This document shows positions 14,544 through 22,622 of a stretch of DNA of 64,000 bases, piece after piece. This DNA is from Planctomycetota bacterium (GTDB taxonomy: Bacteria > Planctomycetota > Phycisphaerae > Phycisphaerales > UBA1924). Every line of letters starts with the position of its first letter. The stretch's first letter is position 1. Under the pieces are notes generated by a model, which saw only the letters and a list, made by a program, of their open reading frames with translations, was not told the origin of the DNA and made no database searches. Both the position numbers and the translations under genes were made by a program. The stretch spans positions 1 through 64,000 of the forward strand of contig CAUJHH010000032.1 of assembly GCA_963204725.1 (NCBI GenBank), in the 5' to 3' direction.

Positions 14544-14617
14544 GTTCCGGGCCTCCATTCCCCGACTCCGACCGAACGACTCGTGCTCTCCGACGCGCGA
14601 GCTCCGACCGTCCAGTG

Positions 14618-14623
14618 TACCCT
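14618..14623 (+). promoter_or_regulatory. TACCCT -10-like box before kdsD
   Basis: TACCCT ends 9 bases before the ATG at 14633, without a Shine-Dalgarno sequence. It would give a leader of about 3 nt. No good -35 is visible. Confidence 0.3.
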
Positions 14624-14632
14624 CTAGCTCCC

Positions 14633-15685
14633 ATGTCGAGCGGCCCCATCCCCCACAGCGATCCCCGCATCCTCTCCGACGAGTTGGCCTACGCCCGCGC
14701 GGTGCTGAAGGCCGAAGCAACGGCAATTGTCGGGCTTGTCCACGCAGCTCTCGAAGACGGCGATGCGTTCACCCGGGCTGTCGGACTCATCACGGGCTGC
14801 GCCGAGGCGGGCGGGACCGTGCTGGTCTCTGGCCTTGGCAAGAGCGGACTGGTCGGCGCAAAGATCTCCGCGACGCTCTCAAGTCTCGGCATCCCCTCGC
14901 ACGCTGTCCATCCCGCGGAAGCTGCCCACGGCGACCTCGGGCGATTCCGCCAGAACGACACGGTGATCTGCATCTCACACTCCGGCGAGACGGACGAGGT
15001 TGTCGACCTCGCCGCGACACTCCGGCAGGACGGTCTCCCGATCATCGCGATCTCCGGCGGCGTCCACAACGCCCCATCCAGTCTCGAGCGTCTCGCGACC
15101 GTTTCATTGCGTCTGGGCGTGCTCGAAGAGGCCGGCGCGCCCACGCTCATCGCACCGACATCTTCGACCACGGCAACGATGGCCCTCGGCGATGCACTGG
15201 CACTCTGCGCCGCCCGTCGACGCCAGTTCACCGAAGCAGACTTTGCGAAGCGCCACCCGGGCGGAAGCCTCGGTGGGCTGCTCCGACCCGTCACCGATCT
15301 GCTCCGCTTCAGCGTCGGAAAGAACTTCCCTGTCGTCGGCGACGAACTCCCCGTCGGCGAAGCGCTCCGGAGCGCGACCGACAGCGGCCGCCGCCCGGGC
15401 GCGCTGCTGCTGACCGATCGTGACAGCGGCCGCCTCACCGGCATCTTCACCGATGGAGACCTCCGCCGCCTCGTCTTGCGCGATCCTGGCGAACTCGCAA
15501 AGCCGATCCGCGACGTGATGACACGGAACCCACGCACGCTCCCGCACACAGCTCTGGTGCGCGACGCTGTCCGGATGGTTCGCGAATTCCGCGCCGACGA
15601 GATCCCCGTCGTTGACGATGAACTTCGCCCGATCGGCTTGCTCGACGTGCAGGACCTGATTGCCATGAAACTTGTGAAGGATTGA
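14633..15685 (+). CDS. kdsD: Arabinose-5-phosphate isomerase KdsD
   Basis: Converts ribulose 5-phosphate to arabinose 5-phosphate, the first committed step to KDO for lipid A core. 350 residues. A SIS domain with GLGKSGLVGAKISATLSS near residues 68-85 and ISHSGETDE at about 112-120 is followed by two CBS domains (about 220-345) with the GIFTDGDLRR signature. It heads the kdsD-kdsC-lptC-like operon; its stop lies 9 bp before the kdsC start. The same gene order occurs in enterobacteria ahead of lptA-lptB. Confidence 0.93.
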   Translation: MSSGPIPHSDPRILSDELAYARAVLKAEATAIVGLVHAALEDGDAFTRAVGLITGCAEAGGTVLVSGLGKSGLVGAKISATLSSLGIPSHAVHPAEAAHGDLGRFRQNDTVICISHSGETDEVVDLAATLRQDGLPIIAISGGVHNAPSSLERLATVSLRLGVLEEAGAPTLIAPTSSTTATMALGDALALCAARRRQFTEADFAKRHPGGSLGGLLRPVTDLLRFSVGKNFPVVGDELPVGEALRSATDSGRRPGALLLTDRDSGRLTGIFTDGDLRRLVLRDPGELAKPIRDVMTRNPRTLPHTALVRDAVRMVREFRADEIPVVDDELRPIGLLDVQDLIAMKLVKD

Positions 15686-15693
15686 GGAACGCA

Positions 15694-16206
15694 ATGCCTC
15701 GCGATGGCTCGAAGGTCGAATTGCTCGTACTCGATGTCGATGGCGTCCTTTCCGACGGCGCGATCGTTCACGGCCCCGAGGGCTTCGAGCTCAAGCGCTT
15801 CAACACCAAGGACGGATTTGGCCTCCAGCTCTGGCGGCAGATGGGCTTTCGCGCCTGCATCATCACCGGGCGCTCCAGCGACGCCGTCACAACCCGCGCT
15901 CGCGAACTCGGGCTCGATCCCGTCGCGCAAGGCGTCAAGGACAAACAAGCGTCGCTCTCCGCCATGCTCAAGACACTCGGGGTGACCCTGGACCGTGTTG
16001 CCGTCGTTGGCGATGATTGGCCGGACATCAGAATCATGAGGCTGTCGGCCTACGCCATCGCCCCTGCGGATGCGATGCCCGAGACGATTGCCGCCGCGGA
16101 CCACGTCACAAACGCGTGCGGCGGTCGCGGGGCCGTCCGCGAAGCCGTGGAACACTTGCTCGGTTTGAAGGGCCTCATGGAGAAGGCCCGCTCCCTCTAC
16201 CATTGA
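15694..16206 (+). CDS. kdsC: KDO-8-phosphate phosphatase KdsC
   Basis: HAD phosphatase without a cap domain that removes phosphate from KDO 8-phosphate. 170 residues, family-typical. Motif I is LDVDGVLSDG, motif II ITGRSS, and motif IV VGDDWPDI (near 106-113). The ATG at 15694 has GAGGAA upstream; an in-frame TTG at 15682 overlaps kdsD but has no site. The next gene starts 3 bp after the stop, indicating tight coupling. Confidence 0.93.
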   Translation: MPRDGSKVELLVLDVDGVLSDGAIVHGPEGFELKRFNTKDGFGLQLWRQMGFRACIITGRSSDAVTTRARELGLDPVAQGVKDKQASLSAMLKTLGVTLDRVAVVGDDWPDIRIMRLSAYAIAPADAMPETIAAADHVTNACGGRGAVREAVEHLLGLKGLMEKARSLYH

Positions 16207-16209
16207 ACC

Positions 16210-19200
16210 ATGCCACCCCGCCGCATGCTCAAAGCTCGCTTCTACGGCCTGATCGGGGCTGGTGCCTTCGCGCTCGCGGCTGGCGGGCTTGTCGTCGTGC
16301 TCGTTCTCTTATCAGAGCGTCCGAGTGACACCGCGTCCGACGCGGATACGCCCGCCCCACCGGACATCAGAGATGCACTGCCTCAGCACGCTTCGGTCGG
16401 AGCGATGGCGGGCAAAGATCTCCGCGTCCAGATGATGGACAAGGTCGATCCCACTCGCCAGTCGGGCGAACTCCGCGCCGCCGTCGTCGACCCTATGCAA
16501 CTCCCGGGCCACTACGCTGTCGACAAACCGCAGATATGGATGTTCCTGAAGAGCGGCAAGACACTCTTCGTACGCGCGGATTCCGGGCAGTTGGTTATGC
16601 CCTCACGCCGCCAGGAACCGGAGTCCGGCGTGCTTCGCGGCTCCGTAGAGATCCGAATCTACGATGTGATCGGCGTCGGTGATGAGTCCACGCTCGGTCC
16701 ACCCTCCATCGTTGCCAAGACCGCGCTGCTCACCTTCGACACGACAGTGCCAGAGATGGAGTCCCCACAGCCTTTCACTGTCGAGGGGAACGGCATTCTC
16801 TTCGAGGGGCAGACCCTCCGCGTCCTTGCCAGCCAGACCCGCGAGAGACTCGAGCTTGTCGAAGTGCTCCGAGGTGGAAGGCTCGTTTACACTCCATCCA
16901 ATCGCGAGGGCAAGCGAGCATCCAACCAACCGATCGGAGAGCCCGTAACCGGTAGCTCTCGATCCGAACCGGGATCGGTTCTCCGACTGGCCTCTTTCCA
17001 GCCGACGGAACGCCCCGCTTCCGCGCCACGCCAGCGAGAGGATCGCGCGAGCACGCCAAGTACCGCTGCCACGCCGCCAGATGCCCCGAACATCGTGAAC
17101 TACCTGACCACGTTCTCGGACAAGGTCGTTGTGACCCAGACGACACGCGTCCTGACCGGCGACCGCCTCGACGTCTGGTCGCGCGTCGTCGACGGACGTC
17201 TTCCCGATGGAGCAATCGGGGGCAGCGATTCGCGCGGATCAGGCCCAAGCACTCCCACGCCTCAGAATGCTGGCAATCCTCCATCTTCGACGCGCGCCAG
17301 AAGCGAGCCGCAGAGTCAGACGCCCCCGAATTCGCTTCCGGCTGCTCCGAAGGACGAGTCTGTGTATCTGACGTGGACGGGAGCGATGGTCGCTCGCCCG
17401 CTCTCGACGGAGCCACGTGAACTCGAGCTGGACGATGTCTGGTTGCGTGTGACCGCCGACCAGACCGGTGTCGTGCAGATGGACGATCGAGCGACAGCTG
17501 CCGAGGGACGATGCGCCTTGCTCGACTACGCAGGGACAAGGCAGGAACTCAGCATCGCCCGCTCTGGCGCGCTCGGCGCCACGCTGACGATGCCTGATCG
17601 CGGCCGGATCACCGCCACTCGCATCGAACAAAACCTCGCAACTGGCGTAGGACATGTTCCGGGCGCCGGCACGATCGAGTCACTCGAGGGAGATGATCCT
17701 CGCGACGCGAGCCGTCCCATGGCCCGCTGGGACCGAGACGCGACGTTCCTGTTCGAGGTGGTAGACGGCCGAATGTCCGACCAGTTGCGCGAGGCAATGC
17801 TCGAGGGAAGCGTCCTTGCTTCGTCGAACGGCTCATCCATTGGCGGCGAGTCTATCCACGCCCACTTCGCCCCTTCCGCTGACGCCTCGCCCACACTCGC
17901 AAGAGTCCGCGCCGATGGCGCGGTCATCGCCCGAGACGCGAAGGGCAACTCCATTCAATCTGACACGCTCGATGTCGCATTCGAGCCCGTATCCGATGGC
18001 AACGACCCAGATCCAAGCGTCGCGACCGCGATCGGCTCGGTCAGAGTGACCAGCGAACGGGGAGAGGTCGTGACAGCCGCGCTCGTCGAAGCGCAGTTGG
18101 AGCGCGACCAGTCGGGCAATCTGACGTCGCGCGCCGTCCGTGCGGAAGAATGGGTCGAGATCACAACTCCCGACGGGCGCAGAGCGCTCGCTCCGCTGCT
18201 GATCGCCGATGTCCCCGGCCAGATCGTCGACCTGATCGGCCCCGGCTCCCGCGTCTCGCAGACGACCGAGAGCACCACAACGGTTGCTGAAGGCGCGCGG
18301 ATCCAGCTTCAGGGGCTCTCGAGCGCGATCGAAGTCTCGGGGCCTGGTACGTTCTCGCATGGCCCGGTTGATCCGACCGCCGATTCGGACACCCGCGCGA
18401 TCCAGGCCCGGTGGACCGAGTCGATGCGATTCGACGACGCAAGGGGGACTCTCCGCGCCCGAGGAGACGTTCAGGCAACCTCGAACGTCTCCGACCTTGA
18501 GCGTCAGACACTCGATGCCGATGAGATCGAAGCAAGACTCGAGACTCCCGACCTCTACAACCAGCGCGTTCGCGATGCCAGACGCGATGGGCGACCCGTT
18601 CCCGACCGGGAGATCCTCTTCGCACAGGCCGTCTCCGACGCATCGGGAGGCGCGGAGTCACGAATCCAAGCTGCGTATTACACACTGGACGAGGCCGCGC
18701 CCGAAGGAAGGCGGCTCGAACGCCTCTTCCAGGCCCAAGGTGCGACGATCACAAGCGACAACTCGGCACGCTTCGTGGAGATTCCCGGTCCCGGCCGTAT
18801 GGTCGTTGCCGACTTGAGACCTCGCGACGCCGGCGGTTCCGGCACCTCCGCGGCCTCACCGGCACCCGGCTCGTCGCGGGGTCGCTCCCTCTTTGAGTGG
18901 GCAGGATCGATGCGCTTCGATCGTGAACCCGGTGTCATCCGGCTGAACGACAAGGCCAGCATGGTCCAGCGCCGACTGGAAGACAACGGCGTGCTCAATG
19001 TCGCTGGCGACATCCTGGAAGCGAGAGTGCGAGAAACCCCGGTCTCGCCGGAATCAGCGGAACCCAGCTTCGATCTCACCGGGGTCACAGCGCGTGGAAA
19101 TGTCGTCGTCACGGAACGGATGGGAACACCGCTGGTCTTGAAGCGTGAGATTCTCGCCGGCACGCTCGACTACGACACCGTCCGTGCCGTGGCCGAGGCA

Positions 19201-19338
19201 ACGGCCGCCGACGGCGAGGCCGTCACGCTCTTCGAGACCGAGCGAGGCACGCCTGTCCGAGCCCGCAGCATTCTCTGGGATCTGGCGAGGGATCGGATCG
19301 ACATCCGGGGGCTCGGCACGGTTTCGAGTCCGCGCTGA
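16210..19338 (+). CDS. Giant LptC/OstA-repeat LPS-transport-like protein
   Basis: 1042 residues with one N-terminal membrane helix (about 11-35) and a large presumed periplasmic part. Segments with the beta-strand rhythm of LptA/LptC/OstA domains recur: FSDKVVVTQTTRVLTGDRLD near 301, SVRVTSERGEVVTAALVEA near 610, ARGDVQATSNVSDLERQTLD near 750 and TARGNVVVTERMGTPLVLKR near 958. Proline- and serine-rich linkers separate them (about 230-290 and 335-375). By position after kdsD and kdsC it occupies the place of lptC-lptA. The inference is that an LptC-type anchor is fused to several OstA-like units that could form a continuous LPS conduit. Ordinary LptC is about 190 residues and LptA about 180, so the size is extraordinary. 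Confidence 0.65.
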   Translation: MPPRRMLKARFYGLIGAGAFALAAGGLVVVLVLLSERPSDTASDADTPAPPDIRDALPQHASVGAMAGKDLRVQMMDKVDPTRQSGELRAAVVDPMQLPGHYAVDKPQIWMFLKSGKTLFVRADSGQLVMPSRRQEPESGVLRGSVEIRIYDVIGVGDESTLGPPSIVAKTALLTFDTTVPEMESPQPFTVEGNGILFEGQTLRVLASQTRERLELVEVLRGGRLVYTPSNREGKRASNQPIGEPVTGSSRSEPGSVLRLASFQPTERPASAPRQREDRASTPSTAATPPDAPNIVNYLTTFSDKVVVTQTTRVLTGDRLDVWSRVVDGRLPDGAIGGSDSRGSGPSTPTPQNAGNPPSSTRARSEPQSQTPPNSLPAAPKDESVYLTWTGAMVARPLSTEPRELELDDVWLRVTADQTGVVQMDDRATAAEGRCALLDYAGTRQELSIARSGALGATLTMPDRGRITATRIEQNLATGVGHVPGAGTIESLEGDDPRDASRPMARWDRDATFLFEVVDGRMSDQLREAMLEGSVLASSNGSSIGGESIHAHFAPSADASPTLARVRADGAVIARDAKGNSIQSDTLDVAFEPVSDGNDPDPSVATAIGSVRVTSERGEVVTAALVEAQLERDQSGNLTSRAVRAEEWVEITTPDGRRALAPLLIADVPGQIVDLIGPGSRVSQTTESTTTVAEGARIQLQGLSSAIEVSGPGTFSHGPVDPTADSDTRAIQARWTESMRFDDARGTLRARGDVQATSNVSDLERQTLDADEIEARLETPDLYNQRVRDARRDGRPVPDREILFAQAVSDASGGAESRIQAAYYTLDEAAPEGRRLERLFQAQGATITSDNSARFVEIPGPGRMVVADLRPRDAGGSGTSAASPAPGSSRGRSLFEWAGSMRFDREPGVIRLNDKASMVQRRLEDNGVLNVAGDILEARVRETPVSPESAEPSFDLTGVTARGNVVVTERMGTPLVLKREILAGTLDYDTVRAVAEATAADGEAVTLFETERGTPVRARSILWDLARDRIDIRGLGTVSSPR

Positions 19339-21195: not shown

Positions 21196-21333
21196 ATGCC
21201 CGACCCTCCAGCGGCCGATGTTGAACCCGAATCCGGAACGCTTCAAGACCGCGTCGGAACCGGTCCGATAAGCCCCTTTCGGCGCGCGGATCGACCGTTC
21301 AGCGCGTGGCACCCCTCGGAGCACCTGAAATGA
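21196..21333 (+). CDS. Possible 45-codon upstream frame coupled to the PD40 lipoprotein
   Basis: ATG at 21196 to TGA at 21331-21333. The stop overlaps the lipoprotein start as ATGA. The sequence is proline-rich and acidic at first (PDPPAADVEPESGTL) and has no recognised family. The overlap and acceptable codon use are the only support. It may be a translation-coupling leader or chance. Confidence 0.25.
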   Translation: MPDPPAADVEPESGTLQDRVGTGPISPFRRADRPFSAWHPSEHLK

Positions 21334-22622
21334 ACGCCCTTCATACCGCCGCCACCATCTTGGCGTTCAGCGCCGCCGCGGTGAGCGGCTGCCAGAGTAG
21401 TGATCACGCCGCTCTCACCGGTCCCGCAACAATTGAGGCAGATCCCCGGCCCGCACATGCCACTCTCAAGCCCGAGCAACACGCCACGCCCAGCCGCGCC
21501 GAGAGCGTCGGAACTCGCTGGTCGAGCGTCGATATCGCCTTTGAGCCCCCCAGCAGCACCTACGACAACGCATTACTGAACTCGCTCCCCTTTGACGCCG
21601 AAAGCGGCATCAGCGATCGCCACACACCAAACGCGACCCAGGTCACGTACACGTTCGATGGTGCCGACTTCGATCCGACCATATCCGCCGACGGCTCGTT
21701 CGTCGTCTACGCCAGCACACAGCATCGCCCGACTCCCGACATCTACATCAAGCGTGTCGGCTCGAGCGTGCTCACCCAGTTGACAAACGATCCCGCCAGC
21801 GATGCGATGCCCGCGCTCAGCCCCGACGGCTCACGCGTCGCTTTTTGTTCCGATCGCGCCGGCAACTGGGATATCTACGTCATGCCGGTCTCGGGCGGCC
21901 ACGCCGTTCAGATCACCACCGACTCATCCTCCGAACTCCACCCGTCATGGTCGCCCGACGGCTCCCGCATCGTCTTCGGCCGCCTCGGCCAGACATCCAA
22001 CCGATGGGAGATGTGGGTGGTCGATGTGTCGAACCCCGCCGTCTCCGAGTTCATCGGGAACGGCATGTTCCCACAGTGGTGCCCCACCGCGAGCACAGGT
22101 GAGTTGGGTGCAGATCGCATCCTCTTCCAGCGCAGCCGCGAAAGAGGTGACCGCGCGTTCGGGCTCTGGACGATCGACTACCGGGACGGACGCGTGGGCA
22201 ACCTCACGCAGATCATCGCCTCGCCCCTCGCCGCCTTCATCAATGCCTCATGGTCGCCGGATGGCGCGCACGTCGTCTTCGCATCTGTTCCGACTCCGAG
22301 CAGCTGGAATCGCGCGTCCGGCACGCGTCCCCCCAAGTCCGAACTCTGGATGATGCCCGTCACGGGCGGCTCCCGCGTAGCGCTCACGTCCGGCGATGCT
22401 GTCGACCTCATGCCGACCTGGGGACCGGACAACCGAATCTACTTCATCTCGGACCGCTCCGGCGCTGACAACATCTGGTCGATGGACCTCTCCGCAGCCA
22501 TCCTGGCCGCAACCGGCTTCGAACCCGAGACACGCTCGGTCATTACCGGCCACGGCGTCCGCACCGTCACGACTGGTCAGGACCAGCCTTTCGCCAACGT
22601 GCAGCAAGACGGACACGACTGA
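21330..22622 (+). CDS. TolB-like PD40 beta-propeller lipoprotein
   Basis: 430 residues from the ATG at 21330. A lipoprotein signal ends in AVSGC with the lipid cysteine at 21. The rest is a WD40-like/PD40 propeller, with blades marked by SADGSFVVYAS, LSPDGSRVAFCSDRAGNWDI, WSPDGSRIVFG, WSPDGAHVVFAS and WGPDNRIYFISDRSGADNI. TolB of the Tol-Pal system has the same propeller, but the N-terminal TolB domain is not evident, so this is a lipid-anchored propeller of unknown partner. A second lipoprotein gene follows after an 84-bp gap. Confidence 0.8.
   Translation: MNALHTAATILAFSAAAVSGCQSSDHAALTGPATIEADPRPAHATLKPEQHATPSRAESVGTRWSSVDIAFEPPSSTYDNALLNSLPFDAESGISDRHTPNATQVTYTFDGADFDPTISADGSFVVYASTQHRPTPDIYIKRVGSSVLTQLTNDPASDAMPALSPDGSRVAFCSDRAGNWDIYVMPVSGGHAVQITTDSSSELHPSWSPDGSRIVFGRLGQTSNRWEMWVVDVSNPAVSEFIGNGMFPQWCPTASTGELGADRILFQRSRERGDRAFGLWTIDYRDGRVGNLTQIIASPLAAFINASWSPDGAHVVFASVPTPSSWNRASGTRPPKSELWMMPVTGGSRVALTSGDAVDLMPTWGPDNRIYFISDRSGADNIWSMDLSAAILAATGFEPETRSVITGHGVRTVTTGQDQPFANVQQDGHD

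Follow-up and report, generated by a model that had tools for sequence, protein, structure and literature searches.

A planctomycete gene behind kdsD-kdsC very likely encodes a single-chain LptC-LptA bridge

The window, the entire stretch of 64,000 nucleotides analyzed here, carries a kdsD-kdsC operon whose third gene encodes a protein of 1042 residues. This raises the question of whether one polypeptide can take the place of both LptC and a chain of LptA subunits as a periplasmic conduit for lipopolysaccharide (LPS), as an initial annotation of the DNA had proposed. The polypeptide consists of an anchor helix, an LptC-like jellyroll, and about four OstA/LptA-like segments, and longer and shorter versions of it occur phylum-wide. 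The gene very probably encodes a single-chain LptC-LptA bridge of the Lpt pathway, with homology and genomic context pointing to LPS transport as its function.

Reading frame, operon, and domain organization

The open reading frame from 16210 to 19338 on the plus strand starts with ATG and comprises 1042 codons plus a stop. It begins 3 bases past the stop of kdsC on the same strand, and its GC content by codon position is coding-like over the full length, the same as in the neighboring genes. The start of kdsC is placed at the ATG at 15694 behind GAGGAA; a longer alternative frame has a TTG start at 15682. Because nuoC follows downstream of the fused gene on the opposite strand, the operon is taken to consist of kdsD, kdsC, and the long gene. 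The features are as follows.

14615..15685, plus strand: kdsD, arabinose-5-phosphate isomerase with SIS and CBS domains, operon gene 1 (Pfam SIS, 3e-21; CBS, 3e-14; TIGR00393 KpsF above cut-off)
15694..16206, plus strand: kdsC, KDO-8-phosphate phosphatase, operon gene 2 (TIGR01670, 2.8e-40, above cut-off)
16210..19338, plus strand: fused lptC-lptA gene, 1042 aa, operon gene 3 (sequence, orthologues, synteny)
16231..16311, plus strand: single membrane anchor, residues 8-34, with basic residues ahead (N-in) (AF2 helix 8-34; hydropathy maximum of 2.46 in the 19-residue window from residue 14)
16411..16899, plus strand: LptC-like β-jellyroll domain, residues 68-230 (fold match, sub-threshold TIGR04409, hhalign, Pfam match of orthologue L014)
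16903..17067, plus strand: disordered linker, residues 232-286 (pLDDT < 50)
17077..17679, plus strand: OstA-like segment 1, residues 290-490, with a disordered loop at 339-380 (repeat match of 383-490 to 891-1040; strands mostly at pLDDT > 90)
17710..18369, plus strand: OstA-like segment 2, residues 501-720, roughly double the other segments in length and the family's best LptA match (PDB profile and orthologue L012 matches)
18400..18813, plus strand: OstA-like segment 3, residues 731-868 (internal repeat match to 891-1040, 501-615, and 600-725)
18880..19329, plus strand: OstA-like segment 4, residues 891-1040, the C-terminal unit, presumably oriented toward LptD (fold matches)

The gene kdsD belongs to the operon context and lies outside the bridge itself. 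In most relatives, the order of a divergent scpA upstream, followed by kdsD, kdsC, and the long gene, is kept, and nearly all neighborhoods inspected show the orthologue behind kdsD and/or kdsC. The frame is not a chance one, since a single orthologue is found in 40 of 41 genomes and the position next to kdsD/kdsC is conserved; the annotated gene for a single protein of 1042 residues, placed third behind kdsD and kdsC, is thereby confirmed. The kdsD-kdsC-lptC order is known from enterobacteria. Profiles and synteny establish it here, so that it is not enterobacterial alone but also belongs to Planctomycetota. A TolB-like protein with a PD40 propeller is encoded downstream at 21306-22622 of the window, and its order with the operon is conserved in close relatives.

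The AlphaFold2 (AF2) model, calculated with 30 orthologues, shows a mean pLDDT of 82.5 and a pTM of 0.65, with 591 residues at a pLDDT of ≥90. It is laid out as an N-terminal helix, disordered linkers at residues 35-64, 232-286, and 339-380, and ∼60 β-strands elsewhere, giving a nearly unbroken run of β-jellyrolls after the membrane helix. According to hydropathy and the AF2 model, the 1042-residue protein contains no other strong membrane segment beyond helix 8-34. Self-comparison of the family profile reveals four repeated modules (residues 383-490, 501-720, 731-868, and 891-1040), each of which starts at a conserved tryptophan (Trp389, Trp507, Trp735, and Trp897) and ends near GxG.

A Foldseek search of the PDB with the model returns LptD, LptC, LptA, and LptH as the top matches. 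In the VIA comparison, residues 63-207 match LptC (9dor_C) with a Z score of 9.8, and residues 886-1042 match LptH (14.9), LptA (14.3), the N-domain of LptD (13.7), and LptC (13.3); unrelated folds reach a Z score of at most 8.8, compared to 13 to 15 for LptA/LptC/LptD. The predicted structure thus bears out the proposed run of jellyrolls, LptC-like at the N terminus and LptH-, LptA-, and LptC-like at the C terminus. Teneurin, megalin, OspA, TCP10, and other low-ranking VIA and Foldseek matches were dismissed as common β arrangements. As in LptC, a single N-terminal anchor (helix 8-34) precedes a periplasmic jellyroll (the LptC match at 63-207), and residues 886-1042 form a β-jellyroll of the LptA type. 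The protein is an LptC fusion and not a stand-alone LptC of ∼190 residues, and its OstA-like units are covalently joined behind the membrane anchor rather than being separate, soluble, oligomerizing LptA. The C terminus is a jellyroll, and the outer-membrane β-barrel of LptD (PF04453) is absent from the 1042 residues.

Sequence homology and the other Lpt genes

Profile searches with the window protein alone remain below the cut-offs. The Pfam LptD_N match at residues 299-322 of OstA-like segment 1 is not significant (E value of 0.24; 12.1 bits against a cut-off of 20.4), TIGR04409 (LptC) aligns with residues 85-205 below its threshold (E value of 0.012; 15.1 bits against a cut-off of 38), and Pfam LptC is not matched; a CON_HrpB match was dismissed as chance. 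The 30-member family, in contrast, shows LptD_N in 24 members (best, 1e-9) and LptC in 6 (E values up to 1; best, 4.8e-4), so that the profile matches expected from the initial annotation are found at the level of the family but not of the single protein. The LptD_N cut-off is passed in the orthologues L005, L012, and L013. The match of 1e-9 covers residues 597-689 of L012, equivalent to ∼600-690 in the window protein, and Pfam LptC lies at residues 73-206 of L014. These positions within the family (LptC at 73-206 or 86-209 and LptA at 597-689) agree with the predicted anatomy. With four repeat modules and LptD_N matches above the cut-off in orthologues, the earlier count of "at least four" OstA-like segments is a fair one.

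Compared with PDB sequences, the family profile matches LptA and LptD chains only (LptA 8onu, E value of 2e-4; LptD N-domain 9t3o, 0.006), and the part covering segment 4 also matches LptD N termini in relatives. The references for profile-profile alignment by hhalign were LptC and LptA encoded in kds operons of proteobacteria, together with a single planctomycete LptC of the stand-alone type. Canonical LptC aligns at residues 73-218 (P value of 6e-6) and LptA is placed at 601-700 and further places, with nothing found for the reversed profiles in either case. The annotated LptC-like anchor is therefore substantiated by helix 8-34 and the LptC-like domain at ∼68-230, which the TIGR04409 match covers below threshold and the hhalign match with a P value of 6e-6. 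Distant homologues in the same operon slot, for example, L088 and L147, pass the curated LptC cut-off.

The search for further Lpt genes covered the source genome and 40 relatives. The family profile detects exactly one bridge locus in 40 of these 41 genomes, the exception being a genome that is 82% complete, and the orthologous frames mostly span 950 to 1260 residues. Besides this locus, the profile matches just LptD N termini and a few stray weak sequences. PF03968 (LptA/OstA) and PF06835 (LptC) yield zero matches in the source genome. All LptC matches among the 41 genomes (6 genomes; E values up to 0.1) and both LptD_N matches (2 genomes; up to 1e-3) lie inside orthologues of the fused gene. 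No separate lptC or lptA, and hence no normal lptC-lptA pair elsewhere that would speak against the fusion, was detected by profile searches in the source genome or the 40 relatives, while LptB, LptF/G, and LptD were found. LptB is encoded in one copy as a separate gene in 40 of the 41 genomes, and LptF/G are likewise separate genes in 40. Pfam detects LptD in 28 genomes and misses it in 13; the source genome has a separate LptD on contig G000:C75, whose N-domain is missed by Pfam LptD_N. Since Pfam overlooks both the window protein and this N-domain, a separate LptA of strongly divergent sequence might go undetected.

An LptF-like permease of 563 residues (G000:C66:4281-5969; L081) shows a PF03739 match in two pieces ∼256 residues apart, corresponding to ∼63 profile positions, which gives a periplasmic domain ∼190 residues larger than usual. 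The split match is also present in many relatives.

Distribution in Planctomycetota and a probable fusion to LptD

The fused design is common to Planctomycetota as a phylum and is not peculiar to the source genome. In a wider collection of loci, for which KdsD served as the search anchor, the slot behind kdsD-kdsC (or kdsD alone) is occupied elsewhere in the phylum by proteins of ∼635 to 1060 residues. Distant planctomycetes have 650- to 667-residue proteins in this slot, with strong LptC matches and two to four LptD_N stretches. Examples are L088 (650 residues; LptC, 9e-19; LptD_N, 5e-21), L089 (664 residues), with likewise strong LptC and LptD_N matches, and L147 from Candidatus Brocadia sapporoensis (660 residues; LptC, 1e-17; three LptD_N [LptA] stretches, 4e-23). 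The 294 planctomycete genomes compared contain 62 LptC matches, of which 60 fall in frames of at least 408 residues, the two exceptions being a 178-residue LptC in G061 and a second, 258-residue copy in G226. LptD_N occurs mostly two to four times per frame, either in the same frames as LptC or in LptD-sized frames. The 178-residue protein, a stand-alone LptC behind kdsD-kdsC in a planctomycete-grouped genome (G061:C55:75521-75997; L189:5510-6043), is the main exception to the fusion. In G070, LptD_N is found in frames of 207 and 350 residues (G070:C26:9796-10125 and G070:C87:17598-17909), possibly a stand-alone or split LptA.

In family f30 (G203, G187, G224, and G241) and in L128 and L129, the same slot encodes proteins of ∼1680 to 1840 residues from the anchor on. 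The candidates for a total fusion are listed below.

L187:4248-9317, plus strand: total-fusion candidate in the kdsD-kdsC slot
L186/L144, L184, and L185: total-fusion candidates in the kdsD-kdsC slot
L128:7523-12847 and L129:7043-12550: total-fusion candidates in the kdsD-kdsC slot

These proteins show an N-terminal hydrophobic anchor and an LptC signature (TIGR04409, 7e-6 in L187), and in their middle part they match the window protein at residues 510-1034 (P value of 2e-12). By hhalign, the C-terminal 700 residues align with the LptD of Phycisphaerales over 618 columns (E value of 3e-28; probability of 99.8%), compared to 0.3% for the reversed control; all reversed-profile controls stay below 1%. 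Direct Pfam and PDB-sequence searches find no LptD in this C-terminal part, where it is seen only by profile-profile comparison with planctomycete LptD and by fold search. The C-terminal 1000 residues yield a modest AlphaFold model (pLDDT of 66; pTM of 0.44). Its first 32 Foldseek matches are all LptD, the best at 9e-21, but TM-scores are low, so that it is the Foldseek E value and not a good superposition that carries the fold match. Profile comparison and modeling thus indicate that a total fusion of LptC, LptA, and LptD likely exists in one lineage. As a Rosetta-stone fusion to an LptD-like barrel, it supports a role of the family in LPS transport. It is probable that the LPS bridge of Planctomycetota is one covalent chain of gene-encoded length and that in one lineage it forms an LptC-LptA-LptD protein of ∼1.7 to 1.8 kaa, a single polypeptide crossing the envelope.

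Proposed mechanism and relation to known Lpt systems

In the model system, LptB2FG extracts LPS, which is handed over from LptF to LptC, LptA, and LptD (PMC10094684), a transport also described by the PEZ model, as told in PMC8727689. In the planctomycete protein, the LptC-like domain would dock on the jellyroll of LptF in the LptB2FG transporter, and LPS, pushed by ATP hydrolysis, would slide along the continuous hydrophobic groove of the joined jellyrolls. Such sliding along one chain is suggested by the covalent linkage of LptC and LptA stations that, counted outwards from the anchor, keep the order of the model system. The C-terminal unit would finally dock on the N-terminal jellyroll of the separate outer-membrane LptD. 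A single chain would therefore replace LptC and the noncovalent LptA oligomer, with the number and order of units set by the gene. For the replacement proposed in the initial annotation, the architecture and the lack of separate lptC and lptA among the 41 genomes speak in favor, and a part as an LPS conduit is suggested by homology and genomic context.

The same protein could be read as an extended LptC, in which the N-terminal part acts as LptC, lengthened by jellyrolls, and a divergent stand-alone LptA completes the bridge. The weakness of the profiles in this order, in which a divergent LptA might escape detection, and the LptD_N frames of G070 would fit such an arrangement. It is nevertheless unlikely, as the protein itself contains strong LptA-like units and, LptD N termini aside, the family profile detects no further jellyroll protein that is convincing among the relatives; where Pfam works well, LptA stretches share the frame of LptC or lie in LptD-sized frames, with few exceptions.

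Other readings retain the bridge or the fold and change the cargo or the role. A single-chain Lpt-type lipid bridge for an envelope glycolipid other than LPS would be in line with a survey in which the Lpt system of the phylum is termed "largely reduced" (PMC8871954), but this is highly unlikely in view of an operon with two KDO biosynthesis genes that is kept across the phylum, the presence of LptB, LptF/G, and LptD, and the report of LptD in all planctomycetes examined (PMC3422733). Long β-groove bridges are common, and several unrelated β proteins reach middling Z scores, as would be expected of a structural periplasmic tether or an AsmA/TamB-like phospholipid bridge that is OstA-like in fold alone. 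We regard this as extremely improbable: the best matches are LptA/LptC/LptD at Z scores of 13 to 15, compared to ≤8.8 for unrelated folds, the sequence profiles are specific to LptC/LptA, and the kds operon context and the relatives with a fused LptD-like barrel point the same way. AsmA/DUF3971-type Pfam matches are absent from the window protein and 29 relatives, a profile absence that is not decisive.

For the favored single-chain LptC-LptA bridge, both fold and pathway are already known, and the variation lies in the joining of several LptA units in one chain. No description of such a bridge was found in the open-licence literature, which is weak evidence of absence and agrees with the initial annotation, where the design was considered undescribed. 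The "largely reduced" system reported in the survey of PMC8871954 may reflect lptA and lptC hidden in an unrecognized fused gene. The same cause likely underlies the choice of LptD and BamA as markers in PMC3422733, these being the sole tested outer-membrane genes that were specific and conserved enough. How many LptA copies build one bridge has yet to be settled for the model system (PMC10094684); with the unit number written in one gene, the length, order, and permanence of the bridge become directly testable. Natural forms of ∼650, ∼1000, and, fused to LptD, ∼1700 to 1800 residues are available, and the one-chain bridge could be studied structurally as a single construct.

The proteobacterial bridge, LptB2FG-LptC-LptA(n)-LptDE, shares with the planctomycete protein the jellyroll fold, the N-terminal anchor, the order of LptC followed by LptA-like units, the upstream kdsD-kdsC, and separate LptB, LptF, LptG, and LptD. 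It differs in its separate LptC (∼190 residues) and LptA (∼180 residues), the latter oligomerizing noncovalently in unknown number (PMC10094684), compared to one chain in planctomycetes. The Lpt cluster of diderm Firmicutes likewise encodes small OstA-domain proteins, presumably LptA and LptC, but as two separate proteins of ∼200 residues and with no LptD found (PMC5007114). Verrucomicrobia, relatives within the PVC group, also have an Lpt system, in which LptA and LptC are assigned to two distinct neighboring genes, Mfum_1152 and Mfum_1153 (PMC10542722). LetB and, in Veillonella parvula, a long MlaD (PMC10665443) resemble the fused protein in that a single type of polypeptide reaches across the periplasm in place of several components, whereas these MCE-domain phospholipid systems are unrelated in fold and cargo.

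A short fusion is found in Omnitrophota, where one open reading frame behind kdsC (L126:7535-8359) fuses LptC (2e-15) to an LptA-like stretch (4e-7), with homologues in L133, L174, and L127 and sizes of 274 to 333 residues. In contrast to the planctomycete operon, the gene order is kdsD-kdsC-lptCA-lptB, with a single LptA-like stretch and lptB directly next. These short LptC-LptA fusions possibly represent an intermediate stage of the long bridge.
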